This document shows, in pieces, positions 1,683 through 23,088 of a stretch of 24,112 nt of DNA; positions within the stretch are counted from its first letter, which is position 1; each line of letters begins with the position of its first letter. The stretch covers positions 1 to 24,112 of the IMG/VR virus record IMGVR_UViG_3300035670_001223; one strand, given 5' to 3'. A model generated the notes under the pieces. It did not search any database and was not told where the DNA came from. It worked only from the letters and a program-made list of their open reading frames with translations. Position numbers and translations under genes: made by a program. Origin of the DNA: a virus.

Positions 1683-2717
1683 ATGCAAGCACAGATTCGC
1701 ACGCCTAAGGCCACGTACACCGTGGACTACCCGATGGCAATCGCAACAGCCCGCCGTCAGTTCCAGACCCTTTGGAGCGCCGAAGAGTTGGGCGTGGAGA
1801 AAGATGAGGGCGACGTACGCACGCGCCTTACCGAAGCAGAGCGCATGGGGTTGATTACCGTGCTCAAGCTGTTCACGCAGTACGAGCTAGAGATTGGCCA
1901 GGAGTTCTGGTCAGGCAAGTTCAGCCGGCTGTTTCCGCGGCCTGACATGCTGCGTGCTGCCAATGCCTGCGCCTTCGTAGAGCTCAACAGCCATGCCCCG
2001 TTCTACGACCTGATCAACAAGACCCTCAACCTGGCCAACGATCAGTTCTACATGGCTTGGCAGGAAGATCCGGACCTGGTCCAGCGCATGGACTTCGTGG
2101 AGAGCCACCTCAAAACCAAGGACCCCTACGAGTGTCTGGCTGCCTTCAGCTTCATGGAAGGTGTCGTGCTCTACTCCAGCTTCGCCTACCTGAAGTCCTT
2201 CAACATGGGCGGGTTCGACATGATCCCGCACATCGCCGCCGGTGTGGATGCCAGCTGCAAGGAGGAGAACAGCCACTTCGAGTTCAGCTCCTGGACCTAC
2301 CGCCAGCTCATGGTGGAAGAGGAGCAGCTGGGCCTGATAGGGGAGGAGAACAAGCAGGCCTACGCCAACATGTGCCACGAGATCGCTGAGAAGGTCTATG
2401 AGCACGAAAAGATCATCATCAAGAAGATCTTCGAGAACGGGGCCATCCGCACCATCTCCCAGGACGAGATCCTCCACTTCATCCGTAACCGGATCGACAT
2501 CGTATTGCAGGCACTCAACTGCGAGCCGATGTTCGGAGACGAGGCTGGTGTAGTGTCGGGGTGGTTCTACGATGCCCTCTCCACTTACAAGTTCGCGGAC
2601 TTCTTCGCCAACAACCAGATCCAGTACGTGCGTACCTGGAACAAGCATGCCCTGAAGTTCGACCCCACCCCGGATGCTCCTGCACCGACAGTCACCAAGT
2701 TCCTGGAGCGTACCTAA
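1683..2717 (+). CDS. nrdB: Ribonucleoside-diphosphate reductase, beta subunit (class I)
   Basis: This 344-residue protein is the radical-generating subunit of class I ribonucleotide reductase. The diiron ligands can be placed by pattern: E68 (LFTQYE), E100 and H104 in helix C (FVELNSHAPFY), E159 (FMEG), and E195 with H198 (KEENSH). Y108 sits four residues after H104, as the radical tyrosine does after the first histidine in E. coli NrdB. The odd point is that E100 and H104 are separated by three residues rather than the usual two. The start has GAGGA 6 bases upstream. It overlaps nrdA by one base (TAATG), which implies translational coupling. The beta-before-alpha order is the reverse of the common bacterial operon. 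It works with NrdA to make dNDPs. Confidence 0.95.
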   Translation: MQAQIRTPKATYTVDYPMAIATARRQFQTLWSAEELGVEKDEGDVRTRLTEAERMGLITVLKLFTQYELEIGQEFWSGKFSRLFPRPDMLRAANACAFVELNSHAPFYDLINKTLNLANDQFYMAWQEDPDLVQRMDFVESHLKTKDPYECLAAFSFMEGVVLYSSFAYLKSFNMGGFDMIPHIAAGVDASCKEENSHFEFSSWTYRQLMVEEEQLGLIGEENKQAYANMCHEIAEKVYEHEKIIIKKIFENGAIRTISQDEILHFIRNRIDIVLQALNCEPMFGDEAGVVSGWFYDALSTYKFADFFANNQIQYVRTWNKHALKFDPTPDAPAPTVTKFLERT

Positions 2718-4408
2718 TGGCCAAGACCTACGAACAGCTGAGTGAAGAGCGCAAAGCCGGGCAAGCCCGTGGCGACTTCCCCGACTGGTACACCACCCCG
2801 GCGTACCAGATGTTTCAAGCCAAGTACGCTGTACCAGGTGAGGCAGGCCTTCGAGGTCGCCATCGCACGATCGCCAAGACCCTGGCCAGGCACCTGCCTG
2901 AGCCGGAGAAGTGGGAAGAGCTCTTCTTTGAAGTCATGTGGAAAGGCTGGCTATCTCCCGCCTCTCCGGTACTGGCCAACACCGGCACCGATCGGGGCCT
3001 GATGGTCTCATGCTCCGGCCAGTTCATTGACGACAGCATTGACTCGTTCTACGCCAATTTGCACGAGTCGGCCATGCTGTCCAAGATGGGCTTTGGCTGC
3101 TCTGCCGACTTCAGCTCGGTAAGGCCCCGGGGCTCAGTCATCTCCGTGGGCGGTAAAGCCAGTGGCGTAGTCCCTGTCATCAAGGACTTTGCCACTATGG
3201 CGTCCAACGTCAGCCAGGGCGCCCAGCGACGGGGCTCCATCGCCTCCTACCTGAGCCTGGACCATGACGACTTCCCTGAGCTGATCGCCCTTCTGGAAGC
3301 AGAACCGGACGGACTGAACGTGGGTTGGGTCGTCACTGACGCCTTCATCGAGAAGCTCCAGGCAGGTGACAAGGAGGCCAACGAGCGTTTCACCCATGCG
3401 CTGCACACCAAGCTGGTCACTGGCCGTGGCTACTTCTTCAAGATCGATGAAGCCAACCGGCACCGGCCGCCGATGTACGTCGACCTCGATCTGGACATCA
3501 AGGCCACCAACCTGTGCACTGAAATCATGTTGCACAGCTCCAGGGACTACACCTATACCTGCGTGCTGAGCTCCATGAACCTCGCCAAGCGCAACGAGTG
3601 GAAGGACACCGATGCGATCTTCATCGCTACCGTGTTCCTCGACTGCGTGGTGTCTGAGTTCCTGGAGAAAGCCAAGGGCATTCCGGGTCTCGAGAAGGCC
3701 CTGCGCTTTACAGAGAAAGGTCGTGCCATCGGCCTGGGGGTGATGGGCTTCAGCACCCTGCTCCAGAAAGAGCGCATCGCATTCGACTCTTTCGAGGCCC
3801 ACCTGCTCAACCAGGAAATCTTCCGTCAGCTTCATGACGACAGCGAGCGAGCAACCCGGTGGATGGCCAAGGTACTAGGAGAGCCCGAGTGGTGCTTTGG
3901 CTACGGTGTACGCAACACTCACCGAACTGCCCTGGCCCCGACCAAGAGCACTGCCCTGCTGATGGGGGGCGTCTCCGAAAGCACTACCCCAGATCCCGGC
4001 ATGGTGTTCGAGATCGGCTCTGCGGCCGGTGGCATGAAGCGCATCAACGCCGAGTTCTACGAGCTGATGAAGGAGCGTGGCCAGTACACCCCCGAAACCA
4101 TCGCCAGCATCAACCAGAAGATCGGTTCGGTGCAGCACCTGGACTGGCTTACCGACCACGAAAAGATGGTGTTCCGTACTGCCTTTGAAGTGGATCAAGA
4201 GACCATTCTGCGCCTGGCCTCTACCCGCCAGAAGTACCTGTGCCAGGGCCAGTCCCTGAACTTCTTCGTCAGTGAAGATGGGGACGAGGAGCGCATCGCC
4301 AGACTGCACTCCAAGGCACTGCTGGATCCGAACATCCTCAGCCTGTACTACATCTACTCGCGCAGTGGTGTGGTGATCAACAACGAATGCGTGGCCTGTG
4401 CTGCGTAA
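2717..4408 (+). CDS. nrdA: Ribonucleoside-diphosphate reductase, alpha subunit (class I, no ATP cone)
   Basis: This is the catalytic subunit that reduces ribonucleoside diphosphates. It is 563 residues, against roughly 750 for E. coli NrdA. The N-terminus goes directly into the catalytic barrel (FPDWYTTPAYQ), so the ATP-cone activity site is absent. Active-site residues are present: C99 (VSCSGQ), the N265-L-C267-T-E269 triad, C282 (YTCVLSSMNL), the tyrosine pair in LSLYYIYSR (544-545), and the C-terminal redox pair C558/C561 (NECVACAA). The phosphate-loop sequence PTKSTALLMGGVSES is at 408-422. ATG2717 overlaps the nrdB stop and precedes all conserved sequence, so the longer upstream frame inside nrdB is discarded. 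With no ATP cone, dATP feedback through that site should be lost, which is my inference. Confidence 0.95.
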   Translation: MAKTYEQLSEERKAGQARGDFPDWYTTPAYQMFQAKYAVPGEAGLRGRHRTIAKTLARHLPEPEKWEELFFEVMWKGWLSPASPVLANTGTDRGLMVSCSGQFIDDSIDSFYANLHESAMLSKMGFGCSADFSSVRPRGSVISVGGKASGVVPVIKDFATMASNVSQGAQRRGSIASYLSLDHDDFPELIALLEAEPDGLNVGWVVTDAFIEKLQAGDKEANERFTHALHTKLVTGRGYFFKIDEANRHRPPMYVDLDLDIKATNLCTEIMLHSSRDYTYTCVLSSMNLAKRNEWKDTDAIFIATVFLDCVVSEFLEKAKGIPGLEKALRFTEKGRAIGLGVMGFSTLLQKERIAFDSFEAHLLNQEIFRQLHDDSERATRWMAKVLGEPEWCFGYGVRNTHRTALAPTKSTALLMGGVSESTTPDPGMVFEIGSAAGGMKRINAEFYELMKERGQYTPETIASINQKIGSVQHLDWLTDHEKMVFRTAFEVDQETILRLASTRQKYLCQGQSLNFFVSEDGDEERIARLHSKALLDPNILSLYYIYSRSGVVINNECVACAA

Positions 4409-4412
4409 GGAG

Positions 4413-4424
4413 TTATTGCAATAA
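4413..4424. promoter_or_regulatory. Palindrome TTATTGCAATAA at the start codon of the next gene
   Basis: A perfect 12-bp inverted repeat lies between the ribosome binding site AAGGAG (4407-4412) and the ATG at 4424. It contains the 10-bp palindrome TAYTGCARTA, which recurs at 17872, 20314, 20554 and 23116. Its position suggests an operator or another protein-binding site, but the binding partner is unknown. Confidence 0.5.
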
Positions 4425-8733: not shown

Positions 8734-9465
8734 ATGACCCAACAAGTCAACGACAATCTGGTGCTGCTGTGTGGCAAGTCTGCTGCAGGCAAAAGCGCCT
8801 CCCTGATGGGGCTCAAGAACCCCGAAGGCGTGATGTACCTCAACTGCGAGGCGGGTAAACGCCTCCCCTTCCGTAGTAAATTCAAAGAGTTCGTGGTCGT
8901 CGATCCCCTGCAGATCAACGAGGCCTTCGATGCGGCCGAGAACATGCCCGAGATCCACACCATCGTGGTGGACTCCCTGACCTACCTCATGGACATGTAC
9001 GAGTCCCTGTACGTGATCAACAGCACAAACTCGATGAAATCGTGGGGGGATTTTGCACAGTATTTCAAGACCATGATGCAAAGCTACGTGGCGCGCTCCT
9101 CTAAAAACGTGATCTTCATTGCCCACGTTAAAGACACCCTTAATGAGTCAGAAATGGTGATGGAGACCGCCGTACCCATCAAGGGCAGCATCAAGAACAA
9201 CGGCGTCGAATCCTACTTCAGCTGCATCATCGCGGCCAAGAAGGTCAAGCTGAAGGATCTCGAGAAATACAGCTCCGAGCTGCTTACCATCACTCCCGAT
9301 GAAGAGGCACTGCAATACAAATACGTCTTTCAAACTAAGCTTACGAAGGACACAGTCAACGAGCGCCTGCGTGGTCCCCTTGGTCTCTGGGACAACAACG
9401 AGACTTACATTGATAATAATATGCAGCTCGTTTTGGATCGACTTCACGAGTACTACAATGGCTGA
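8734..9465 (+). CDS. Sak4-like RecA-type ATPase (recombination)
   Basis: This 243-residue P-loop ATPase has Walker A LCGKSAAGKSAS (12-23) and Walker B HTIVVDSLTYL (75-85, D80), followed by a sensor-like KNVIFIAHV (124-132). Short RecA/Rad51-like proteins of this shape in phages are called Sak4 and promote single-strand annealing or strand exchange together with a phage SSB. The SSB gene lies one gene downstream, which agrees. GGAG is about 10 bases before the start. GC content falls visibly in the second half of the gene, from about position 9000, at the side next to the homing endonuclease. The gene's last 8 bases overlap the endonuclease start. It may correspond to gp44 of N4, from gene order. 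Confidence 0.8.
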   Translation: MTQQVNDNLVLLCGKSAAGKSASLMGLKNPEGVMYLNCEAGKRLPFRSKFKEFVVVDPLQINEAFDAAENMPEIHTIVVDSLTYLMDMYESLYVINSTNSMKSWGDFAQYFKTMMQSYVARSSKNVIFIAHVKDTLNESEMVMETAVPIKGSIKNNGVESYFSCIIAAKKVKLKDLEKYSSELLTITPDEEALQYKYVFQTKLTKDTVNERLRGPLGLWDNNETYIDNNMQLVLDRLHEYYNG

Positions 9466-10015
9466 GTTCACCCTGAGTTCCCACGCAAAAGACCTTACAG
9501 GCGTCCGCTTTGGAAGCCTGGTCGCCATTAAGCCCCTGGGTAAGAAGGGGAGAAATGTCCTGTGGGAGTTCTTGTGTGACTGCGGCTCTTCTTACACGTC
9601 AGAGGGGTGCTGGGTGACTGCGCAAAAACGCAAAGCAACCAACCCCTTGGCGCCTAGTTGTGGTTGCCTTAATCGGCGCACCACAAAGGAACTTCGCCTG
9701 ACCCATGGCTTCTCAAAGCACCCATTATTTTGGGTTTGGGTAGCCATGCGGGAAAGATGTTACAACCCAAATCACCCTGACTACTCCAAGTACGGAGCGA
9801 AAGGGGTGACTATCTGCAATAGCTGGAAAGACGATGCAGGCGCCTTCATCAATTGGGCGTTAACTAACGGGTGGCAAAAAGGACTGCATCTGGATAAAGA
9901 CATCCTTTCCTACGCCCAAGGAATCGTCCCCACATACAGCCCCACTACATGCCAGTTTATAACCCCCGCTGAGAATAGTAGGGCCACGTGGGGCTGGTTA
10001 GAAAAGAACACCTAA
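9458..10015 (+). CDS. HNH-type homing endonuclease, free-standing
   Basis: This 185-residue protein has the order of a known phage family. It starts with LTGVRFGSLVAIKPLGKKGR and an N-terminal zinc-binding region (CDCG, then SCGC). Next comes the HNH half with LTHGFSKHPLFWVW, MRERCYNPNHPDYSKYG and VTICNSWKDD, ending in LDKDI and YSPTTCQFITPAENSR. Such enzymes cut DNA at a site lacking their own gene and spread by repair. GC is about half, clearly lower than most of the window, which marks a late arrival. ATG9458 overlaps the preceding stop by 8 bases; the longer frame upstream lies inside the ATPase gene and is not conserved. No intron or intein is visible, so it is free-standing between two replication genes. 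Confidence 0.85.
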   Translation: MAEFTLSSHAKDLTGVRFGSLVAIKPLGKKGRNVLWEFLCDCGSSYTSEGCWVTAQKRKATNPLAPSCGCLNRRTTKELRLTHGFSKHPLFWVWVAMRERCYNPNHPDYSKYGAKGVTICNSWKDDAGAFINWALTNGWQKGLHLDKDILSYAQGIVPTYSPTTCQFITPAENSRATWGWLEKNT

Positions 10016-12258: not shown

Positions 12259-15200
12259 TCAGCGGAACGGACTGAGCATGGTCTTGAGCAGGATCGGCTC
12301 GTCCCAGGCATCCAGCATCTGCACCGGACCTTCCCGCAGCGGGTTGCGAAGCAGCTGCTGGGTAAACCAGGAGTCCTGGATCGTGGAGAGATCCCCCAGG
12401 GCCATCGACAGCATCTTCAAGGCGATCGCCCGGCCCGGGTGTTCCCGGTACAGGTGGTAGATCGCCCGCTGGATGCGCATGTAGTACTTGGTGAACATCA
12501 GCACACCCTTGTCGTTCAGGTACTGCATCTGTGGCGAGGTCGGGATGTCGTAGTTCACGAACATGTCGCTGGCTTGCTGGATGGCATCTACCTTGGCCAT
12601 CGGGTTGCGCTTCCGGGTGGTCAGGTACTGGAACAGGGTGTAGCGAGCCACGAAGTCAGAGAGCTGCGTGGACTTCGACAGCACCTTGTAGGCCGGGGTG
12701 TCGTGGGTCATGTACAGGGTCTTGGCCGCGTTCATCAGCGGTGCCGGCACCATGTCCAGGTACGGCCCAGCCTTCTCCTCCAGGTAGCTCTTGAAGGGGG
12801 AGAACTGATTCTCGTGCACATCGACGTCTTCCACGATGGTCGGCATCAAGCCAGCATCGATCAGCTCCTTGACCGGGTTGCGGGCAATCGCGTCCTGAAG
12901 TTCCAGGATGCGCTGCTCGATCTCGGTCTGGCGGCCCTGGATGTAGCCGGCATCGAGGAGCTGCTGCAGCTGGGTGAGCTCGTTACGATCGCGCTGATAG
13001 TCCAACGCGCCCTGAATACCTTCCTTGTGCAGTCGCGCCATGTCGGCCATGGGCACCCCGTGCCACCACAACACCGTCACGTTGCTGATCACGTTGAACC
13101 ACAGCGTGGTCAGGTTCTTGATTACTACGTTGTCCTTGACCGCGGTGACCAGGCCCTCGGCCGCCATCGAGCCCTGGCGCATGCGCAGGTAGGCCTTCTC
13201 TCCGAACACTGCCTGCAGGGTGTTCACGAAGATGGTTTCCGCGACGTTACGCTCCTCGGCATCCTTCTGGAACACGTTGGAGAAACGCATCTTGCGGTAG
13301 CCGAAGTTGATGTTCACCAGGTCGGTGCGCACCATGATCTCGGCCTTGCCCCAGATCTCAATCGCGGCTTGCTTGGTGTCTTCCGGCAACAGGTCCCAGT
13401 GCTCCTTGAGCTGCGGGTCTACGCTGTCTGGGGCCACCCGCACGTAGGAGTGCGGCATCTCCTGGTACTCGGCGTCGTACTGATCCTTGAGAGCCTGGAC
13501 GATTACCCGGTTGTGGTCCTTGGAGGTCTGCTTGTCCGCGGTCTGGCCGACCAACATGCCCAGCACGTCCTCGATGGCGTTGTCCCGCTCGAGCAGCGCG
13601 TCCTTCTGCTGCTCGCTCATCATGTAGCGGTAGTTGACGATCTCCCCACGCTCATTGACCACCGGCACGTAGAAGGGGCCACGCTTCGCTTCCTTGCGTG
13701 GATCGAAGCCAGCACCCAGAGACGAAAGCCGCTCGTAGGCCTTGGCGTTCCTGGCCCGGATCTCCGCAGTCATCTGGGCGTTCTTCTTGAACACCCCCGT
13801 GTAGCCGGCCTTGCTCAGACCCGCGTGCACCGTGGAACCCTGGGCGCGCTCACCGGTGAAGGACAGGGTGCCGGTCACCCGACGAGCCTGGCCACCGTCC
13901 TTGATGCGCATCAGGTACTGCTGCTCGGCCCGCGGGTCGGTACGGTCCTTGGGCAATGCATCCACCTTGGTGTAGCCAATCGCTTCGAGCTCGGCTGCCC
14001 GGGATTCGTTGACCACCTCCAGGGTGATGTTCGGGTTGTAGATTTCCGGGGTGTAGCCCTTCTGCATCAGGGTCGGGGAACCGTGAAACAGCGCTTCCAG
14101 GGCCTCCTGCTTCATGGCCTTGTGCAGGCCCAGGATGAACTCGATACCGTTGCCGTCCTGCCGCTGGTTCTCGACACGCAGCACCTCACGAACTTCAGCC
14201 AGCTGGTTTCCGTCACTGTACTGCAGGGCGTAGAGAGTGATCAGCGGATCGAGAATCGCCAGGGCCGCGTCTGCCTTAGTAACATCCACCTTGCCGGCAT
14301 GCTGCGTCCCACCCAGGTGCGCGATGTTGTGGGCGTTCAGCATCACGTTCTCGGCCGGTGCCACACCCCACGCCATCTGATAGCCCAGGGCCTTGGCGCT
14401 GGCCAGGTAGAAGTTCAGGTGCGGGCCGCCTAGCGCTGTCAGATCGGCCTCCAGGGTAGCCGCATAGCTGCTCGGATCCGCCAGGATCGCGTCGAGCTCT
14501 GCCACCGTGAAGCGGTCCAGCAAGCTGGCCATGTCGGTGCGCAGGGTGACCTGAGTCAAGGCCGCCTTGGCCGACTTGGTGAGGTACTCCCCGCTGTGCT
14601 TGAAGGCCGCCATGACGTTGGCCCGGGTGTTGTCGATCATGCTCAGACGCATGTTCTCCAGGCGCTTGGTCTCCCGCAGCAGCATCTGGGCTACCTTAGT
14701 GGCCTTGTCCCAGGCGCCCTGCACCTCGGTCACTGCCGAAGCCAAGATGCCTTCACGCACCTTGCCCATCTCGTGGTTGCCCTGCTTGATGGCCGCGGTC
14801 AGGTGATCCAGGCGGCCGGCTGCAGTGGTCTCGGCCAGGGCGGCTGCCGCACGCACGGCAGCGAACTTGTTGTTCTGCAGGAAGGGCAGCTGCGCGGCCT
14901 GCTCCACCTTCTCCGCGACCTTGAAGTTCAGTCCGTCGGTGAGCTCGCTGATCGCATCCAGAATGCCGGCACGGCCTCGGGCCAGGAGTTCCTGGCGACG
15001 GGTCTCGGCGTCTACCAGGTGCATCATCAGACCTTCGATCCGGCTACCGGCCACATCCCCACCGCGCACGCCCAGGGTGAAGCCATGAGCCGTATCGACA
15101 ACGTGATCCCAGACCATCTTCAGGGTGTCGCCCAGACGGCCTTGCGGATTCACCGGTGCCGGCCGATCGGTCTCGAACTGCAACTTCTCGCGTAGACCCG

Positions 15201-18200
15201 GGTGCACCATGGCCAGGGCAGCGAAGCGGCTCAGGTGGTTGGTCATTCCCTTGCGGTCGTTGGCCTGGATGCGGAACACGAAGTTGTGCTTGGCCGCCGC
15301 GGCTGCCCGGGATTCCGGTGCTGCCAGGGCCCAATCCCCCTCCAGGAAGTCCTCGGGGGTGATCCGCTGCCCAGCCTCCTTCCACACCTTGGCCAGTTCC
15401 TTGTAGGCCACCGGGTCCGCGTTCAGAGTCTCGCGCATCACCAGCTCAACCTGCTCGAGCACGAAGCTCTGCTTCTCGTCCAGCTGGAAGCCTTGAGACA
15501 GGGTCTCGGAACTGAACGGCATGAAGTTCTCGTTCACCGCCCGGTTGAAGACCTCCAGCGGCGTCAGCGGCCGGTTCTCGGCTACCTGAGCAAACCAGGC
15601 ACCGAAGGGGCCATGGACCTTCTGCACCACGTTGGAGAGCAGGTGATCGAGTACCGGGTCCTGGGTGCCCGGCAGGGCCTCCAGAATCTCCAGGCTGCTC
15701 ATCTCGGCCACACTGCTGGCTGCCTGTGCCAGGGTCAGCTCACGCTGCTGCTGGGAGGCTTCCCGGCTCTTCTGGGCTTGGGCCATGACGCCAGAAACAC
15801 TGGCCACCAGTACCGACAGTCCGTTGGTCTGCTGCTCGGCTTCGCTCTTCTGGCTGCCACGGAACAGGATCCCGCGGATGGTCTCCAGGAACTGGCGCAT
15901 CCCGGTGATTAGGCTGTTGCCCTTGGGTGCCGGTACGCTGATCTGGTTGAGCACCTCCTGCTGGAAGCGCAGGTTGGTCATGCCCCAGGCCACCAGCTCG
16001 TGCACGCTGCTCAGCGCATCCTCGAAGCCAGTGATCTGCTGCTCCGCGGCGTAGGCCCGGGCCTTCTTCAACAGGCTCTCGAGAGTCCCCACCAGGGCCT
16101 TCACCTCGGCGTTGGCCGGGTTCTCGATCTGCAAGGCCACGGCCGCATGGATCAGCTCGTGGATGATGGTTTCGGTGGTCAGGCCAGAGTCAGTGAACGA
16201 CGGGCTCTTGAGGAAGATTCGACCTTCTTTCATCCCCTCGGTGGTGTACCAGCCACGGGCATTAGAGACCGGGGCTGCCCCCACCTCGGAGGCCGGATGG
16301 TTCGGGGTGAGCATGGTCACGGTCACCTCGGCCGGTAGGCCACGGGCCACCTGAACCAGCACCTCCCGATAGAAGGCCGCGGTACGGCCCTTGGGCATCT
16401 GCTCAACCAGACGTAGGGCCTGCTTCGCCACCTGACGCGCGGAGACCTGGTCCCCCGCCTTGATGAAGAAGTCGACCCAGCGCGGATCGCTGGGAATGCG
16501 GGCCGGACCCACCTCGCCCCACACGCTCTGCAACCCAGCACGGTTGGCTTCTGCCTGCAGGGCCGCCAGGGCCTCAGTCGCCTCGATCTCCGGCACTGTG
16601 GCCAGGGCCTGTTCCAGGTTGAAGCCAGTCTGTTGATCCAGTGCTTCGGAGACCCGGGCCACGGCATCGTTGCCGTCCGCCTGGGCACGCTCGATCAGAT
16701 CCAGTACCAGGGCTTCAGGCTGAGTCAGTACCGATACAGTGGAGGGCACCGGGGCCTGGGCATTCGGATCGAACAGCTTCTGAACTTCCGGCTCCGGCAG
16801 GGCCAGTTGGGTATCGCGCTTGCGGCTGCTCGCCGCGGCGCTCTCCTGCTGGGCCTTCACATTGCGGAACCGGTCCTTGGCTACCTTGCTGGCTTCCAGG
16901 ACCTGGGCATCCGGGCTACGCAGGGCAGCCTGGGCGGCACGCTCGGCGTTGGCTTGCTGCTCCTGGGGCGACACCACATGGTTGCCCTCGAGCATCGGGT
17001 ACTGGTCCACCGCGGCCATCTCGCTCAGAGCAGTCAGGCGGGTCTTGTCCGCGTGCCGGGAAGCCCGAACCGCGTAGTCGAGCACCAGGCCGACGCCATC
17101 CTGGGGCTGGGCGTTGTACCAATCCCAGTCGAGCTCGCCCATGGTCTTGCGCATGTAGGCCTTGGCCGACTGATTGGAGAGCCGCTTGTAGCGGGCTGCC
17201 AGCTCAGACTTGGGATCGATGTCCTTGAACACCTCGAAGAAGCCAGTGGCAGTACGTTCCAGGGCCTGGGTGATCTCGTCAGACACCGAGTATTCACCCA
17301 TCACCTCGTAGGTGGCTTCGTTCAGGGCCTTGGCCACCGCCTTGGCATCCTGAGCAGCCACGATCTCAGCGTCATGGACGTTGAGTGCCTGGAGCTTGCT
17401 GTAGGCCTGCGAGGCGATGTAGCTGTCCGTGGAGTGGATCGCCAGGATGATAGCGGCCACACCCGGAGCCAGCGGAGTGCTCTCCATGCCGTAGTTGGTC
17501 TTGGTCTTCGGACTGCCGGCCGGGAAGTACCCTTCCGCGAACTTGGAGACGGTCATGTAGGCCTGGTCGTCGGAAACCTGCTGACCGTTCTTGGCCAGGT
17601 AGATCCCATTCTCCCGGGTGTCCCCGGAGAGCTTGGTCCAGGCCGAGTGGATCACCGGCTCCATGAACTTCAGCTCGTCACGGATCTCCTGCAGCTGCTG
17701 GGCACTCAGGTCCATGGCCGGCACGTAGCTGACGACCCCGTTGCGGGTGACCTTCTCGTAGGGCAACTGGCTGTTGGCCATCAGGTACTTGAGCTTCTGC
17801 TCACGCTTGTACTCGAAAGCCAAGTCATACAGCTCGAAGGCCGTATTGGCGGCGTTGTTTACTGCGTCACGTATTGCAATAAAGGTGTGGAACTCGCGCT
17901 TCAGCGTCTGCTCGATGACTTCCCCGAAGGAGCGCTTGAAGGCTGCCTTCACTGCGTTGGCTTGGGCCCTGGTCAGCTGCTTGGTCGCGGCTTCCCGATC
18001 CATGGCGACGTCGAGCTTTTGACCGTCCGGCAGGAAGCGGTTGATCAGGGCCAGACTGTCAGGCACCGACAGATCGCCCTCGTTGTTCAGGGCCGCCTCG
18101 ACCTTGTCGTAGAGAGCGTGGAGGAAGTCATCTGCCATGCCGTCCACCACGTTGTTGATCCCCGAGCCGAACATCAGCGCGGTGATAGGGGTCTTCACCA

Positions 18201-21200
18201 GGTTGCGGCCTTCGCTGGTCACACCACCGTCGGCAGAGGTCAGCGGGCCAGTCACGGCGTAGACCGCGTCCAACAGGTCCGCCATCTCGGGACTGGCTTG
18301 GGCAGCACGATGCGCCAGGCGCACCATGGAACGCGCCGTGGCCTTGTAGAGGTCCTGGTTGTTCGGATCCTGGGCCCAGTCCGCTACCTGGGTGAAGCCA
18401 GCGTCCTTGCCGAAGAAGCCGCCCGCGGCAATCCGGGACAGGAGACCCCCTGAGTCTTTGCCGGCACCCAGCATCAGCATGGCCAGCATCGGGCCGTTGG
18501 TCTTGCCGTCCACTTCCCGGGTCAGAGTGTGGGTGAAGGACTCCGTACCGGGGGTAGCCCGGGCGTTCTCGTAGTGGGCCAGGGCCAGCAGGGCATCCAG
18601 GCTGTGGAACTTCTCTCCGCCCTTCTTCACGGCCGCTTTGATCAGGGCCGCATCGTTGTCCTCGGCCACTTCCCCATTCAGCGCGCGCTGCAGGGCCTTC
18701 ACGCCATCGGCAATCACCATCTCTTGGGCCTTGGCCTGAGCCTCCTCAAGTGACTTACCGGTGCCCTGGGCATCGGTCTTCACGCCAAGACCTTCCCCCA
18801 CGGCAAGCCAGAAGTCCTGCATGTGCTCGGCATTGGTCAGACTGGCTTCGGTCTGCCAGCCTCCCATCCCGGTCAGCAGACGATGCAGCTTGTCGGCCTG
18901 GGGGTTGAACAGGTTCTCTTCCAGGCCTACGCGCTGAGGCTTCCACATGTTGCGGTTGAAGAAGAACGGCTGCTTGAGCTCGGGGTCCTCGGAACGCACC
19001 AGGGCGATGAACTCCTTGGCTTGGTCCAAGCTGCGCTGCACGGAGTCGTTCTTGCCCTTCACGCTCTCGCTGTTAGCGCTGTGCAGGGTACGGGTGCTGG
19101 TGTCGATCCAACCCCCGATCTCCAGGAACAGCTGCTCCGGCAGCGCCTCCAGCAGGGTCACCGCATCGCTGCGCAGGTAGTGGGCCTTCTTGTTCTCCTT
19201 GGCGAGGATCTCGCGCATCGCCATGGGCACGCCACGGTCAGTGTTCTTGATTGCCTTCTGGGCGTACTTGGGTGCCTGGAAGCTTGGGGCCTTGTTGCCT
19301 TGCTCCATGCCGAACAGGTTGGCGATCACCCCCTGGGTGCCCTTGGCGGTGTCTTTGATCTGGGCGAGCTGTGCCTGAGCATCCGGGGTCTGGGCCAGCG
19401 CGTAGAAGTAGTGCTGGATCTTGGCGTCCCCGGACTCCTCAGTGCCCATCAGTGACTTCAGCTCGGCATCGGAGATCGTGGTCTTGGTCACCAAACCTTC
19501 CACTTCCAGCAGCGCCAGAATGCGGTTGCCCAGTGCCGTCTCCAGCTTGGCGATGCTGCTCAGGCTGGCATCCGGCAGGGCGTAAGCGCCCAGTGCCTGG
19601 GCAGCCCGACGACCTAGCTGATTGACCAGCAGGCCCTCACGGGTGCCGGCACCGGCCAGACGACGCTGCAGGGCCAGGGGTACGCTGCCCATTTCGTTGC
19701 CAAACATCTGGGCGATGGTTTCCTCGGTGTTGGTCGGAGAGCGTGTGCCCTGCTCGACCAGCCAGCCGAAAGCCCCGGCACTCATGGCGGTCCACACGTT
19801 CTGCTCCACAGCACCGGTCTGCGGATCACGCAGGTACTGGAAGAAGTCCTCCAGGTAGTAAGTGTTGTCGGCACGCAGCGGGGGAAGTCCTGCCTCGAAG
19901 CCCGCCTGCCAACGGTTGGCATACTCGGTGAACAGATCCACCAGATCGGCCTGGGCCGAACTCATCTCGGAAGCCAGGAACCTCTGAGCGAACTCCTCCC
20001 CACGCAGCTGGGAGATCTCGGACAGGAAGTTCTCGACCTCGACCAGAGGCTGCTCAGAGGTGGCGTTGCGACGCTGCCGGCCCTGACGAATGCCCGCGGT
20101 GACGGCATTGACCACTGCCCGGTTGGCCTGGGTCACCGGCTCCACAGCATTGCTGATTGCCCGCTTCACCGCGGCTACCTTGCCCTGACCACGCTTCTTC
20201 TTGGTCTCCGCTACCTTGGCTTGCACGGTGTCGCCCAACAGATCCACTTCGGCCGGCTGCGGTTGCACACCCTGCACTGCTGCAGGACTGCTTTGGGTAG
20301 TGGCTTGCTGCGCTACTGCAGTACTGCCCTCAGCAGCCACAGGCCCTGTGTCCGGGGCGTAGGTCACTGAAGCCTCACCTTCGATCGGGGCAGGGCTTAC
20401 GACGGGTGTTTCGGGAGCAACAGTGAGGCTGGCTTCCTGCTCAACCGAACCAGAACGTACTGCAGCAACGTCTTCATCAACAGCTGGTGGAGTGGCTTCA
20501 ATACTGACCTCCTGCTGTACGGCTGTAGGGGCTTCCTGCTGTACTGTGTTACTTACTGCAATAGCTGTAGCCAGGCTCATCACGGCCTGCATTTCTGCCT
20601 GGGCCGCCTGCAGTGCTGAAGCCTCTGCCTCAATGGCAGTCAGGGTGCCCTTGTTGTTGGAGTTGCGGTGGATGATCATCGCACCGCTCTCATCGCGCTC
20701 TTTTTTACTTGGGATGGTCTCGGTAATGGCCCAGCTACCATCCTCCTGGGGGATCACCGCCAACCGGTTGTTGGTGCCCTCTACCTGACGGAAGGCCTGC
20801 CACACCATCTCGTTCTTGGACCCATGATCAGCTGCAAAGCTCTCAAGGAGTCCCATCAGGCGCCCGGCCGTCTCGGTATCCCCGGCCTGCACCGCCGCGG
20901 TGATGCCACTGCGGTACTGGACGATGCCCAGTGACCCAGTCTGTCGGGAACCCTGGAACACTTCCATGTTCACGCCATCAGTGCCCAACGCCACATTGGC
21001 CGCAGCCTGAGCCTCACTGAAGCGGACCAGGAATTCGCGCTGCTCCGGTGCCAGGACCTCAGTCTGCAACAGAGCACTGGCTTGCTCCAGGGTCACTGAC
21101 TCCGGGTTGGCCATGGCCAGGGTAATCACCTGCTGGACGGCATCAGGGCTGCCCTGGAGCGCCTGATCCACGCTGGCCTGTACATCGGTGCCGGCTGTGC

Positions 21201-23088
21201 TCTCGCCCACCAGACGGCTGTGCACACGCTTGATGGCCTCCAGGTCAGACTTGGCCATCTCGACGCTGCGCTCAGTCATCTCCCGATCGGAATCCGTGAC
21301 GCGCTTCACACGCTCGAGCTGCTGCTCCATAGCGGCAATCACCCGCTCCTGCAGCTGGGCTTCCTCGGTGGTCTTGTCCGCAAGCTCCTTGAAGCTGGCT
21401 TTCTCATCACGCAGGGTGCGCTGCAGATCGGTCCGGTACTCCCGAGTCTCCTGGTACATCGCTTGCTCGGCCTGAGCCACACTGGCCACAGCCGCTTCCA
21501 TGACCTGTCCGATCTGGCCCATGGTCTGGGTACGCTCTTCCGCAGAGAGCTCGGCGCTCTTCAGGCGCATGTCCAGGGCCAGGACCGCCGCCAGGGGGTT
21601 GAAGGACTCGCTCTGGGTATCGACCAGGGTACTGACGTCCCCGCTCTGTGCCGCGGCCTGGGCGAGCTCCATGGCCCGGGTAACGTGGGCACTGCGAACC
21701 CGCTGCGCTACACCCGCGTTGTGGGCCTTCTCCTCAGTCAGTCCGAAGACCTCGTGGACGATCCGGGCACCACCGGACATGGCACCACCCGCACCACCGC
21801 CCAGGACGGCACCCTGGTAGATCTCGAACCCGGAGGCCGGCTGGTAGGTGGCCTCACCCTCGGTGTAGGTCTGAATACCCTCGGCCAGGGTCTCGGCAGC
21901 CGTACCCGCGGCACCGTGGCGGGCCACGTTCATGCCGGACCGCACCAAGCCAGTGGCTACCGCCTCAGCGGGGCGCATGGTGGGGGTCATCAGCTTGATC
22001 AGGGTGGTATCCCCGATCGCCATGGCGGCCGTCCACGCGAAGGCGTTGGTGGCCATGTACTCGAATTCTTCCTGGGAGGGTAGGGCACCGTTGTGTGCCT
22101 TCTGGTAGTTCACCACCCCCTGGCGCAGCAGATCCATACCCTCGGAAGCCATCACAGTGGTATAGGCACCCCCCGATACCGCGGCCAGGGCCAGCTGAGG
22201 TGCCTGCTCTGCGACTACCTGTGCGGTAGCACCCGGGTTCATCACCAGGGCCGTACCGCCCTGCATGGCCAAGCCAGTCAGTGCTGAGACGGTGTCAATG
22301 ATCCCGAACTTCAGATCACCATCCTTCAGCCGCTGCATGGCGGTGCCCAGGTCCTTCAGGCCCTGGTCACTACGCCAGGCCAGCTCTTCGGAGAACCGGG
22401 TCATCTTGACCGGGTCCACGATACCTTCCGGCGCCTCACGGGACTCCTTGATGGCCCCGCCCAGACGACGGCTCAGCTCACCAGTAACTAGGCGTGCCTC
22501 ATTGCTGATCGGCGGGGTGTACCCCGCATAGGTCTCGGGAGTCTGGCCAGGCACCAAGCCATCCTGGACCATCTCGGTGAAGAGCGAGGGCCGGCGTGCT
22601 TTCGGCCGCTGATCCAGGATCTCCTGATCACCAGGCAGCTGCTCACCCGCTTGCTTGCGGTTGAACGCTTCACGCGCTTCGGTACTGACGTTGCCCTCCA
22701 GCAGCGCAGCCGTCGCATTGAACGGGGCCGCCAGGGTACTGCCTTCCATACTTGCAGCCCGGTCACGGATCGTGGCTGCCAGGTTGACGGGCTGGAACCA
22801 GAAGTCCTCTTCATGCAGTCCCAGCTTGGTGGTCCACGCATCCTGACGGGCAGCGAGCTCTTGGCGCTTGGCTTCGGCAGCAGCAGCGACACGCTCCTGA
22901 CGCTGCTGGGAGACGTACTCTTGAATGCCTGTGAGGCCCCCACGTTCAGTACCACTGGAGATCAGCTGGTCTCTCTCTGCTCGCATGCGGCTTTCGAAGG
23001 CATCTACCCCGCTGGTGGACTCAACCAGCTTTGCCCGCTCCTGCTGCATGCGGGCCTCGAAGTCCTTGAGTACGTTCTGCTCCGCCAT
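12259..23088 (-). CDS. Giant virion RNA polymerase, N4 gp50-like
   Basis: This 3609-residue protein is comparable to N4 vRNAP (about 3500, from memory). N4 vRNAP is packaged, injected with the DNA, and transcribes early genes from hairpin promoters. The N-terminal third has a duplicated FExRM motif (10-45), hydrophobic Gly/Ala stretches (about 265-310 and 410-440), a coiled coil (about 530-640) and a Pro/Gln/Ala linker (about 840-960). The central part holds the polymerase motifs: NMWKPQRV with R1386 (the T/DxxGR region), EVDGKTNG with D1527 (motif A), R1628-N-L-V-K1632 with F1640-G (motif B), H1885-S-T-D1888, and V-H1905-D1906 (motif C). The C-terminal part has HELIH at 2310-2314 with E2364, a zincin signature, and an end region recalling large polyvalent phage proteins (about 3470-3600). 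AGGGG is 7 bases before ATG23088. The family identity is inferred from motif order and spacing. Confidence 0.88.
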   Translation of the reverse strand: MAEQNVLKDFEARMQQERAKLVESTSGVDAFESRMRAERDQLISSGTERGGLTGIQEYVSQQRQERVAAAAEAKRQELAARQDAWTTKLGLHEEDFWFQPVNLAATIRDRAASMEGSTLAAPFNATAALLEGNVSTEAREAFNRKQAGEQLPGDQEILDQRPKARRPSLFTEMVQDGLVPGQTPETYAGYTPPISNEARLVTGELSRRLGGAIKESREAPEGIVDPVKMTRFSEELAWRSDQGLKDLGTAMQRLKDGDLKFGIIDTVSALTGLAMQGGTALVMNPGATAQVVAEQAPQLALAAVSGGAYTTVMASEGMDLLRQGVVNYQKAHNGALPSQEEFEYMATNAFAWTAAMAIGDTTLIKLMTPTMRPAEAVATGLVRSGMNVARHGAAGTAAETLAEGIQTYTEGEATYQPASGFEIYQGAVLGGGAGGAMSGGARIVHEVFGLTEEKAHNAGVAQRVRSAHVTRAMELAQAAAQSGDVSTLVDTQSESFNPLAAVLALDMRLKSAELSAEERTQTMGQIGQVMEAAVASVAQAEQAMYQETREYRTDLQRTLRDEKASFKELADKTTEEAQLQERVIAAMEQQLERVKRVTDSDREMTERSVEMAKSDLEAIKRVHSRLVGESTAGTDVQASVDQALQGSPDAVQQVITLAMANPESVTLEQASALLQTEVLAPEQREFLVRFSEAQAAANVALGTDGVNMEVFQGSRQTGSLGIVQYRSGITAAVQAGDTETAGRLMGLLESFAADHGSKNEMVWQAFRQVEGTNNRLAVIPQEDGSWAITETIPSKKERDESGAMIIHRNSNNKGTLTAIEAEASALQAAQAEMQAVMSLATAIAVSNTVQQEAPTAVQQEVSIEATPPAVDEDVAAVRSGSVEQEASLTVAPETPVVSPAPIEGEASVTYAPDTGPVAAEGSTAVAQQATTQSSPAAVQGVQPQPAEVDLLGDTVQAKVAETKKKRGQGKVAAVKRAISNAVEPVTQANRAVVNAVTAGIRQGRQRRNATSEQPLVEVENFLSEISQLRGEEFAQRFLASEMSSAQADLVDLFTEYANRWQAGFEAGLPPLRADNTYYLEDFFQYLRDPQTGAVEQNVWTAMSAGAFGWLVEQGTRSPTNTEETIAQMFGNEMGSVPLALQRRLAGAGTREGLLVNQLGRRAAQALGAYALPDASLSSIAKLETALGNRILALLEVEGLVTKTTISDAELKSLMGTEESGDAKIQHYFYALAQTPDAQAQLAQIKDTAKGTQGVIANLFGMEQGNKAPSFQAPKYAQKAIKNTDRGVPMAMREILAKENKKAHYLRSDAVTLLEALPEQLFLEIGGWIDTSTRTLHSANSESVKGKNDSVQRSLDQAKEFIALVRSEDPELKQPFFFNRNMWKPQRVGLEENLFNPQADKLHRLLTGMGGWQTEASLTNAEHMQDFWLAVGEGLGVKTDAQGTGKSLEEAQAKAQEMVIADGVKALQRALNGEVAEDNDAALIKAAVKKGGEKFHSLDALLALAHYENARATPGTESFTHTLTREVDGKTNGPMLAMLMLGAGKDSGGLLSRIAAGGFFGKDAGFTQVADWAQDPNNQDLYKATARSMVRLAHRAAQASPEMADLLDAVYAVTGPLTSADGGVTSEGRNLVKTPITALMFGSGINNVVDGMADDFLHALYDKVEAALNNEGDLSVPDSLALINRFLPDGQKLDVAMDREAATKQLTRAQANAVKAAFKRSFGEVIEQTLKREFHTFIAIRDAVNNAANTAFELYDLAFEYKREQKLKYLMANSQLPYEKVTRNGVVSYVPAMDLSAQQLQEIRDELKFMEPVIHSAWTKLSGDTRENGIYLAKNGQQVSDDQAYMTVSKFAEGYFPAGSPKTKTNYGMESTPLAPGVAAIILAIHSTDSYIASQAYSKLQALNVHDAEIVAAQDAKAVAKALNEATYEVMGEYSVSDEITQALERTATGFFEVFKDIDPKSELAARYKRLSNQSAKAYMRKTMGELDWDWYNAQPQDGVGLVLDYAVRASRHADKTRLTALSEMAAVDQYPMLEGNHVVSPQEQQANAERAAQAALRSPDAQVLEASKVAKDRFRNVKAQQESAAASSRKRDTQLALPEPEVQKLFDPNAQAPVPSTVSVLTQPEALVLDLIERAQADGNDAVARVSEALDQQTGFNLEQALATVPEIEATEALAALQAEANRAGLQSVWGEVGPARIPSDPRWVDFFIKAGDQVSARQVAKQALRLVEQMPKGRTAAFYREVLVQVARGLPAEVTVTMLTPNHPASEVGAAPVSNARGWYTTEGMKEGRIFLKSPSFTDSGLTTETIIHELIHAAVALQIENPANAEVKALVGTLESLLKKARAYAAEQQITGFEDALSSVHELVAWGMTNLRFQQEVLNQISVPAPKGNSLITGMRQFLETIRGILFRGSQKSEAEQQTNGLSVLVASVSGVMAQAQKSREASQQQRELTLAQAASSVAEMSSLEILEALPGTQDPVLDHLLSNVVQKVHGPFGAWFAQVAENRPLTPLEVFNRAVNENFMPFSSETLSQGFQLDEKQSFVLEQVELVMRETLNADPVAYKELAKVWKEAGQRITPEDFLEGDWALAAPESRAAAAAKHNFVFRIQANDRKGMTNHLSRFAALAMVHPGLREKLQFETDRPAPVNPQGRLGDTLKMVWDHVVDTAHGFTLGVRGGDVAGSRIEGLMMHLVDAETRRQELLARGRAGILDAISELTDGLNFKVAEKVEQAAQLPFLQNNKFAAVRAAAALAETTAAGRLDHLTAAIKQGNHEMGKVREGILASAVTEVQGAWDKATKVAQMLLRETKRLENMRLSMIDNTRANVMAAFKHSGEYLTKSAKAALTQVTLRTDMASLLDRFTVAELDAILADPSSYAATLEADLTALGGPHLNFYLASAKALGYQMAWGVAPAENVMLNAHNIAHLGGTQHAGKVDVTKADAALAILDPLITLYALQYSDGNQLAEVREVLRVENQRQDGNGIEFILGLHKAMKQEALEALFHGSPTLMQKGYTPEIYNPNITLEVVNESRAAELEAIGYTKVDALPKDRTDPRAEQQYLMRIKDGGQARRVTGTLSFTGERAQGSTVHAGLSKAGYTGVFKKNAQMTAEIRARNAKAYERLSSLGAGFDPRKEAKRGPFYVPVVNERGEIVNYRYMMSEQQKDALLERDNAIEDVLGMLVGQTADKQTSKDHNRVIVQALKDQYDAEYQEMPHSYVRVAPDSVDPQLKEHWDLLPEDTKQAAIEIWGKAEIMVRTDLVNINFGYRKMRFSNVFQKDAEERNVAETIFVNTLQAVFGEKAYLRMRQGSMAAEGLVTAVKDNVVIKNLTTLWFNVISNVTVLWWHGVPMADMARLHKEGIQGALDYQRDRNELTQLQQLLDAGYIQGRQTEIEQRILELQDAIARNPVKELIDAGLMPTIVEDVDVHENQFSPFKSYLEEKAGPYLDMVPAPLMNAAKTLYMTHDTPAYKVLSKSTQLSDFVARYTLFQYLTTRKRNPMAKVDAIQQASDMFVNYDIPTSPQMQYLNDKGVLMFTKYYMRIQRAIYHLYREHPGRAIALKMLSMALGDLSTIQDSWFTQQLLRNPLREGPVQMLDAWDEPILLKTMLSPFR
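15997..16161 (-). other. Zinc metalloprotease signature inside the giant protein
   Basis: H2310-E-L-I-H2314 is preceded by TTETII and followed by AAVALQ, so it is a helix of the gluzincin or minigluzincin kind. E2364, in VHELVAWGMTN, lies 50 residues later and is a fitting third zinc ligand, because similar phage-encoded proteases have H-E-L-x-H-A followed by E-F/L-V-A. A mobile-looking beta segment (EVTVTMLTPN, GRIFLKS) precedes it. The substrate is unknown: self-processing, the host envelope or another virion protein are possible. Confidence 0.65.
17371..18933 (-). other. RNA polymerase catalytic core of the giant protein
   Basis: This spans R1386 to D1906. Distances between key residues are 141 (R to motif A Asp), 105 (motif A Asp to motif B Lys) and 274 (motif B Lys to motif C Asp). 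The N4 mini-vRNAP values, as I recall its residues R424, D559, K670 and D951, are 135, 111 and 281. T7 RNA polymerase (R425, D537, K631, D812) has 112, 94 and 181, so N4 is the better match. The residue at the position of T7 Tyr639 / N4 Tyr678 is Phe1640 (codon TTC at 18171-18169). Confidence 0.85.
17872..17881. promoter_or_regulatory. TAYTGCARTA palindrome inside the polymerase gene
   Basis: TATTGCAATA is a perfect match to the recurring palindrome. It lies in coding sequence (Ile-Ala-Ile, ATT GCA ATA) and uses the ATA codon, which is rare in a genome of this GC content. That suggests the DNA motif itself is kept. Confidence 0.4.
20200..20570 (-). other. Disordered interdomain linker of the giant protein, with clustered palindromes
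   Basis: Residues about 840-963 are rich in Ala, Val, Pro, Gln, Glu, Ser and Thr (TAVQQEVS, VAPETPVVSP, AVQGVQPQPAEV) and end before a basic patch (KKKRGQGKVAAVKRA). It separates the N-terminal third from the polymerase. Two perfect TAYTGCARTA palindromes (20314-20323 and 20554-20563) and one near-copy (20458-20467) lie here. Part of the repetition follows from repeated Val-Gln-Gln-Glu codons. Confidence 0.6.
22954..23061 (-). repeat. Duplicated FExRM motif at the N-terminus of the giant protein
   Basis: Residues 10-24 (FEARMQQERAKLVES) and 31-45 (FESRMRAERDQLISS) match at 8 of 15 positions, with further similar residues. It is a short tandem protein repeat directly at the N-terminus. It could be a packaging or anchoring signal; no function is known to me. 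Confidence 0.5.

Follow-up and report, generated by a model that had tools for sequence, protein, structure and literature searches.

RESULTS

The window encodes an N4-like virion RNA polymerase with a zincin-like domain

We analyzed a 24,112-base virus record, IMGVR_UViG_3300035670_001223, over its whole length (the window). Its largest gene (12259 to 23088, minus strand) is an open reading frame (ORF) encoding an N4-like virion RNA polymerase (vRNAP) of 3609 aa, and all the features of this gene given below lie on the same strand. PHROG 2206, "virion RNA polymerase," matched the protein over aa 90 to 3604 (1963 bits; E value printed as 0). By this match and by comparison with solved N4 chains, we found that the polymerase, the large C-terminal domain (C2), and the N-terminal regions of an N4-like vRNAP are all present.

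We placed the single-subunit RNA polymerase region at aa 1092 to 2006 (17071 to 19815) using a profile built from aligned vRNAPs and Pfam, in which vRNAP_dom_2 matched aa 1293 to 1403 (E = 1.8e-7). C2 was located by profile match at aa 2501 to 3599 (12292 to 15588), and aa 2527 to 3559 matched N4 vRNAP chains in phmmer with E values down to 1.9e-60. Part of C2, aa 2769 to 3556, also matches PHROG 19273, a 4846-position family without an assigned function (8.2e-72). The polymerase is followed by a poorly conserved connector at aa 2007 to 2187 (16528 to 17070), delimited by conservation and an extended model. A conserved island, WGEVG (aa 2190 to 2194; 16507 to 16521), recognized from motif counts and modeled as a short strand, then opens a zincin-like metallopeptidase domain at aa 2195 to 2445 (15754 to 16506), which we defined from a 78-row alignment, an AlphaFold2 model, and fold comparison. 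The order N1-N2-RNAP-zincin-C2 fits the MPTase of polyvalent proteins fused to an N4-like RNAP.

The putative active site begins 304 residues beyond aa 2006, where the polymerase profile match stops, with HELIH, aa 2310 to 2314 (16161 to 16147 in the coding direction), which by analogy would provide two metal-ligand histidines and the catalytic glutamate. The third metal ligand, again by analogy, is E2364 (codon 15999 to 15997), which sits within SVHELVAWGMTN (VHELVAW context). Translation of the ORF gave exactly the coordinates that an earlier note on this DNA had assigned to HELIH and E2364. HELIH is the sole HExxH in the 3609-aa protein; 2000 shuffles of the protein gave an average of 0.07.

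Elsewhere in the window, overlapping ORFs at 1683 to 4408 (plus strand) resemble the small and large subunits of ribonucleotide reductase, and a small ORF at 4424 to 4831 matches a PHROG labeled phosphofructokinase (7.3e-27). An HNH endonuclease-like ORF, perhaps a mobile endonuclease, lies at 9299 to 10015 between Sak4-like and single-strand-binding protein genes.

The catalytic residues are the only invariant positions in the domain

When only the window sequence was used to search viral contigs, no relative was found; alignment-based scans succeeded and gave 70 loci in viral contigs and 3 in genome contigs. The patterns used in these scans included the third-ligand Glu and left HExxH free. 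By regular expression, 72 of the 73 loci have HExxH 53 to 76 residues ahead of that Glu; the remaining locus matches the domain profile and is included in the alignment described next. A tblastn search with 235 aa reached 276 phage records at an E value of ≤0.01 and 608 at an E value of ≤10, most of the 608 being uninspected. In three phage records (H90, H104, and H122), the genes that overlie vRNAP-type matches carry the annotation DNA polymerase, DNA polymerase I, or translation initiation factor 2. An unusually long record, the 248,734-base partial genome of Enterobacter phage SonariX, also has a vRNAP-type gene that includes the zincin; this record may be a mixed assembly.

From viral surveys and genome loci we collected 139 copies; removal of similar ones left 77 relatives, which with the window make up the 78 rows, and none was removed for want of HExxH. 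H2310, E2311, H2314, and E2364 are kept in all 78 non-redundant copies, and no other column is invariant. The predicted catalytic set is thus exactly the set of invariant columns, which favors an enzyme.

We also made a less biased survey anchored outside the zincin, on the C-terminal stretch aa 3462 to 3551, and kept 80 of 168 loci. Fifteen of these end before the zincin: 14 have an ORF open at the 5' end, and in one the match starts 564 bases into the contig (L164). Another 64 hold the zincin in 65 copies, every one of which reads H-E-H-E at the ligand columns; seven more weak profile matches that do not cover the HExxH columns were left aside. The profile that found these copies was built from HExxH-bearing sequences and may favor such copies, yet the only full-length vRNAP that it did not match is the 1 remaining locus of the 80 (L147). 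That protein has HELAH elsewhere, around aa 1031 and before the polymerase, with a candidate Glu some 67 residues further on; it is divergent, a vRNAP without the usual domain. Its profile score is weak, and we did not count it as an intact member.

Because the ligand columns are invariant in the alignment (78/78) and in the outside-anchored survey (65/65), we rejected the idea of a chance motif. The earlier note had made its reading depend on conservation of these residues in relatives, and both samples bear it out.

The domain is modeled with a zincin-like fold

We modeled aa 2195 to 2445 with AlphaFold2, using the 78-row alignment as input, and obtained a pLDDT of 95.5 and a pTM of 0.93. 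HExxH lies on a modeled helix at model positions 111 to 128 (aa 2305 to 2322), and the third-ligand Glu, E170 in the model, lies on a helix at 168 to 175 (aa 2362 to 2369). Three strands (62 to 66, 85 to 88, and 96 to 100) form a sheet ahead of the active-site helix, their order being taken from secondary structure. The overall order of strands, HExxH helix, long helix, and E2364 helix agrees with how Iyer et al. (PMC5512222) describe these metallopeptidases. The earlier note had expected H2310, H2314, and E2364 to come together in a predicted structure; as far as secondary structure tells, this is supported, since the model puts them on the two helices that bear the ligands in zincins. The model thus has the features of gluzincins, HExxH on a helix and a third-ligand Glu on a later helix, and the residues themselves are kept in 78 of 78 aligned copies.

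Foldseek alone gave no significant match for the zincin model in the PDB. In VIA-align, the first 28 rows consisted of one solved N4 vRNAP domain and 27 chains of lethal factor, edema factor, Certhrax, or the PPEPs (PPEP-1, PPEP-2, and PPEP-3). Z scores in these rows were 5.5 to 7.4 and then fell to 3.9, and by the tool's own note a Z below 8 can reflect a common arrangement. An extended model (aa 2120 to 2480) had a comparable list of neighbors, with Z up to 7.7. Among predicted viral proteins, 15 matched the model at an E value of ≤0.001; vRNAPs, internal core proteins, and large polyvalent proteins are among them.

The N4 row corresponds to domain C1: the model aligns to aa 2124 to 2348 of 9pnr over 166 residues (Z, 6.7; rmsd, 4.5; 19% identity), and N4 differs in having a longer insert ahead of the third-ligand Glu. 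The best fold neighbors among solved structures are otherwise the lethal factor/PPEP peptidases, which we take to be MEROPS family M34. Lethal factor and the PPEPs are about 6 to 13% identical to the window zincin in the alignments listed. In M34 lethal factor and PPEP peptidases, a Tyr lies seven residues ahead of the third ligand. The window zincin lacks this Tyr and has D2357 there, in a column that is mostly N, P, D, or A in the alignment. Neither the window protein nor its domain matched Pfam PF18818 (MPTase-PolyVal) at the curated cut-off, and 2 of the 78 aligned copies match it, with a best E value of 0.07. Taken together, the conservation and the confident model uphold the earlier note's proposal of a zincin domain fused to the vRNAP, and we are nearly certain that this segment forms a genuine metallopeptidase domain of the zincin type.

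The domain was predicted previously in N4 vRNAP

In 2017, Iyer et al. (PMC5512222) predicted this metallopeptidase in N4 vRNAP at aa 2130 to 2448 and proposed self-processing or host targeting as its functions. Their MPTase belongs to the same family as the window domain, lies at the same site between polymerase and C-terminal domain, and has the same HExxH and Glu. The window zincin is a distant relative; the closest of seven compared sequences, that of Littlefix, is 36% identical in the domain alignment. A 2021 review (PMC8472413) repeats the prediction and reports the domain in Cbunavirus, and a 2025 cryo-EM preprint on N4 (PMC12633501) notes the HExxH in C1 (aa 2124 to 2375); in the accessible portion of that preprint we found no discussion of C1 activity. 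The accessible portions of PMC6950046 and PMC7824862 yielded nothing on the zincin of N4-like vRNAPs. The earlier note knew of no protease activity for N4 vRNAP. We likewise found no report of activity, but the domain itself had been in print since 2017 with the same functional ideas. Thus, the zincin reading is not new and was largely anticipated.

Two observations on N4 bear on self-cleavage: its vRNAP is packaged unprocessed (PMC5512222), and the recombinant full-length protein was obtained without degradation (PMC12633501). According to the methods of the preprint, full-length gp50 was kept in 0.5 to 1 mM EDTA from lysis through gel filtration. A zinc enzyme is likely to be silent under these conditions, and therefore the reported intactness of EDTA-purified N4 vRNAP does not test zinc-dependent cleavage, a point that is new here. 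The protein also remained whole during the hours of expression in E. coli that preceded lysis (PMC12633501), which argues, weakly, against ready self-cutting in the cytoplasm.

The zincin changes its place around the polymerase

N1-N2-polymerase-zincin-C2 is the usual order of vRNAPs by profile matches. We found two loci (L092 and L135) in which the zincin instead precedes the polymerase and two (L139 and L023) with one zincin on each side. All four copies in the latter pair are in the 78-row alignment and keep the catalytic set. Thus, the zincin can flank the polymerase on either side or on both, which is new here; such position swaps were not found in the accessible portion of Iyer et al. 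(PMC5512222). The domain stays next to the polymerase without being tied to a single junction. We infer from this variable placement an enzyme that acts on neighboring connectors, as opposed to one fixed interface, and retention of the zincin while its place shifts is more in keeping with an enzyme than with a structural building block.

Where the zincin follows the polymerase, the gap between them is 112 to 392 aa in 124 ORFs, a count that includes contigs fetched twice. Connector residues 2120 to 2187 are mostly helical in the extended model. Of 79 copies examined, 39 have the motif [WFY]Gx[LVIM]G at a distance of 104 to 120 aa ahead of HExxH; among 1820 blocks, each of 130 aa, 50 have it. 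This WGxLG-type island was the best candidate that we found in looking for a conserved cleavage site in the connector, and we dropped it because in the extended model it forms a short, ordered strand (block pLDDT, 91); no conserved site was found there.

The same domain occurs in ejection proteins without a polymerase

The zincin profile also matched solved ejection proteins, namely, chain G of 9sfn (phiKMV gp37 type; 5.2e-31), chain A of 8vb2 (the PhiM1 TEP; 2.5e-11), and 23sg gp10 (3.2e-8). In a separate scan it matched internal virion proteins of Drulisvirus VKV295 and Pradovirus GF1. The phiKMV and PhiM1 proteins have an HExxH-plus-Glu domain and are ejected, as is vRNAP. Unlike the window vRNAP, the phiKMV-type protein has no polymerase and no C2 by profile. 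8vb2 and 9sfn are absent from the fold matches listed, so their identity as zincins rests on sequence profiles. T7 gp16 was rejected as a family member: it has HERLH at 559, its profile score of -0.4 is no match, and an SLT domain was found in it at 1.7e-31.

Domains of this type have been published or annotated as endolysin- or exotransglycosidase-like. For PhiM1, residues 268 to 528 of the TEP were so named (PMC11440229). In that protein (L172:6198-9986; PDB 8vb2), a search of three proteins placed the zincin profile at 356 to 512 (4.1e-16); the matched region has HEAAH at 385 and a downstream Glu. Pfam gave no lysozyme or transglycosylase match for the TEP. This silence is weak evidence alone, because Pfam gave no match for the PhiM1 OEP either, to which PMC11440229 assigns a lysozyme-like domain. 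The profile match suggests that the PhiM1 domain, published as peptidoglycan cutting, is more likely a protease.

Names given to phiKMV gp37 include "endolysin domain." Chain G of 9sfn and the phiKMV-type protein of phage SPCG align over their full lengths. The match of the SPCG protein to an endolysin-named PHROG begins only at profile position 168, and Pfam finds no endolysin-type domain in it; for these reasons, the label probably comes from the family name. The presence of a predicted zincin in phiKMV- and PhiM1-type ejection proteins, in PhiM1 under the published name "endolysin-like," is new here. We found no earlier report of it in the accessible open-license literature on phiKMV, the ejectosome, and ejection-protein metalloproteases or HExxH, which does not imply that none exists. 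No accessible open-license literature on crAss-like zincins was found. In phage P23-45, a separate injected polymerase also travels with a metallopeptidase domain (PMC10770324).

DISCUSSION

We think that the zincin is probably an active peptidase, predicted to bind its metal through H2310, H2314, and E2364 and to activate water through E2311, as in the chemistry of the family. The leading explanation as a whole, which we hold with as much doubt as conviction, is a zinc endopeptidase that would be silent in the capsid and would cut vRNAP connectors or ejection partners after entry. The zincin would be packaged silent, threaded through the tail along with the rest of vRNAP, and refolded into an active form in the host. 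Its most likely targets would be flexible connectors of vRNAP or of partner ejection proteins. A cut between the polymerase and the C-terminal domain may lift autoinhibition and allow more early transcription. Such a cut would have a use, because in N4 the polymerase is inhibited by the C-terminal domain, and promoter binding leaves the inhibition in place (PMC12633501). Cutting on the other side could detach the polymerase from the membrane-bound N-terminal part; alternatively, cutting may help disassemble the ejectosome. Recurrence of the putative zincin in polymerase-free ejected proteins counts in favor of this explanation. Against active self-cutting stand the unprocessed packaging of N4 vRNAP, its lack of degradation, and the lack of a conserved connector cut site. 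The absence of a significant Foldseek match in the PDB and the VIA-align Z scores below 8 also count against the explanation.

A separate question is whether, after entry, the zincin targets vRNAP or the ejectosome or instead a host protein, and we give the phage-side target an even chance. An active zinc protease could cut a host defense factor or a membrane or periplasmic protein and spare the proteins of the phage. The structural neighbors include host-directed secreted peptidases, Iyer et al. (PMC5512222) list host targeting as one possibility, and the zincin also occurs in polyvalent phage proteins with other partners. However, no host substrate was found named, and the domain is retained almost universally in the vRNAPs of very different contigs and recurs in phiKMV-type ejection proteins. 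Such retention points to a target that all of them share, for which a phage-side protein is the easier candidate, and we consider a host substrate doubtful.

Less probable still, and in our judgment unlikely, is a metal site for structure or regulation, in which the fold would serve packaging, ejection, or polymerase clamping and have little or no peptidase activity. The region that includes the zincin is needed for encapsidation of N4 vRNAP (PMC5512222), C1 contacts the polymerase in N4 (PMC12633501), and no report of proteolysis was found in the accessible literature. However, the general base E2311, needless for mere metal holding, is as invariant as the ligands, and the zincin can lie on the opposite side of the polymerase. 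A non-peptidase HExxH enzyme, such as an iron/2-oxoglutarate-dependent hydroxylase, is very improbable: HExxH alone does not tell the chemistry, and PMC12633501 cites radical-SAM-linked HExxH proteins of this type beside zincins, but the third Glu lies on a later helix as in gluzincins and the leading fold neighbors are peptidases and zincin-containing toxins, in a compared set that may hold no hydroxylase-type structure.

Returning to the post-entry protease, we tentatively extend it to a general ejection protease, a reading that we consider less likely than not. Under this proposal, the large ejection proteins of Schitoviridae and of the phiKMV-, Drulisvirus-, Pradovirus-, and PhiM1-type Autographiviridae would carry the zincin, which after passage through the tail would cut the ejectosome or its cargo; a fused polymerase would be freed in this way, and the "endolysin-like" domains of the phiKMV and PhiM1 types would be this protease.

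Many phages with short tails drive very large proteins through a narrow tail, building a channel that has to be closed afterward. In the best structural work on N4 vRNAP to date, the buffer was one that strips zinc. If the zincin is a protease, it would give these phages a conserved trigger for polymerase release and channel dismantling.
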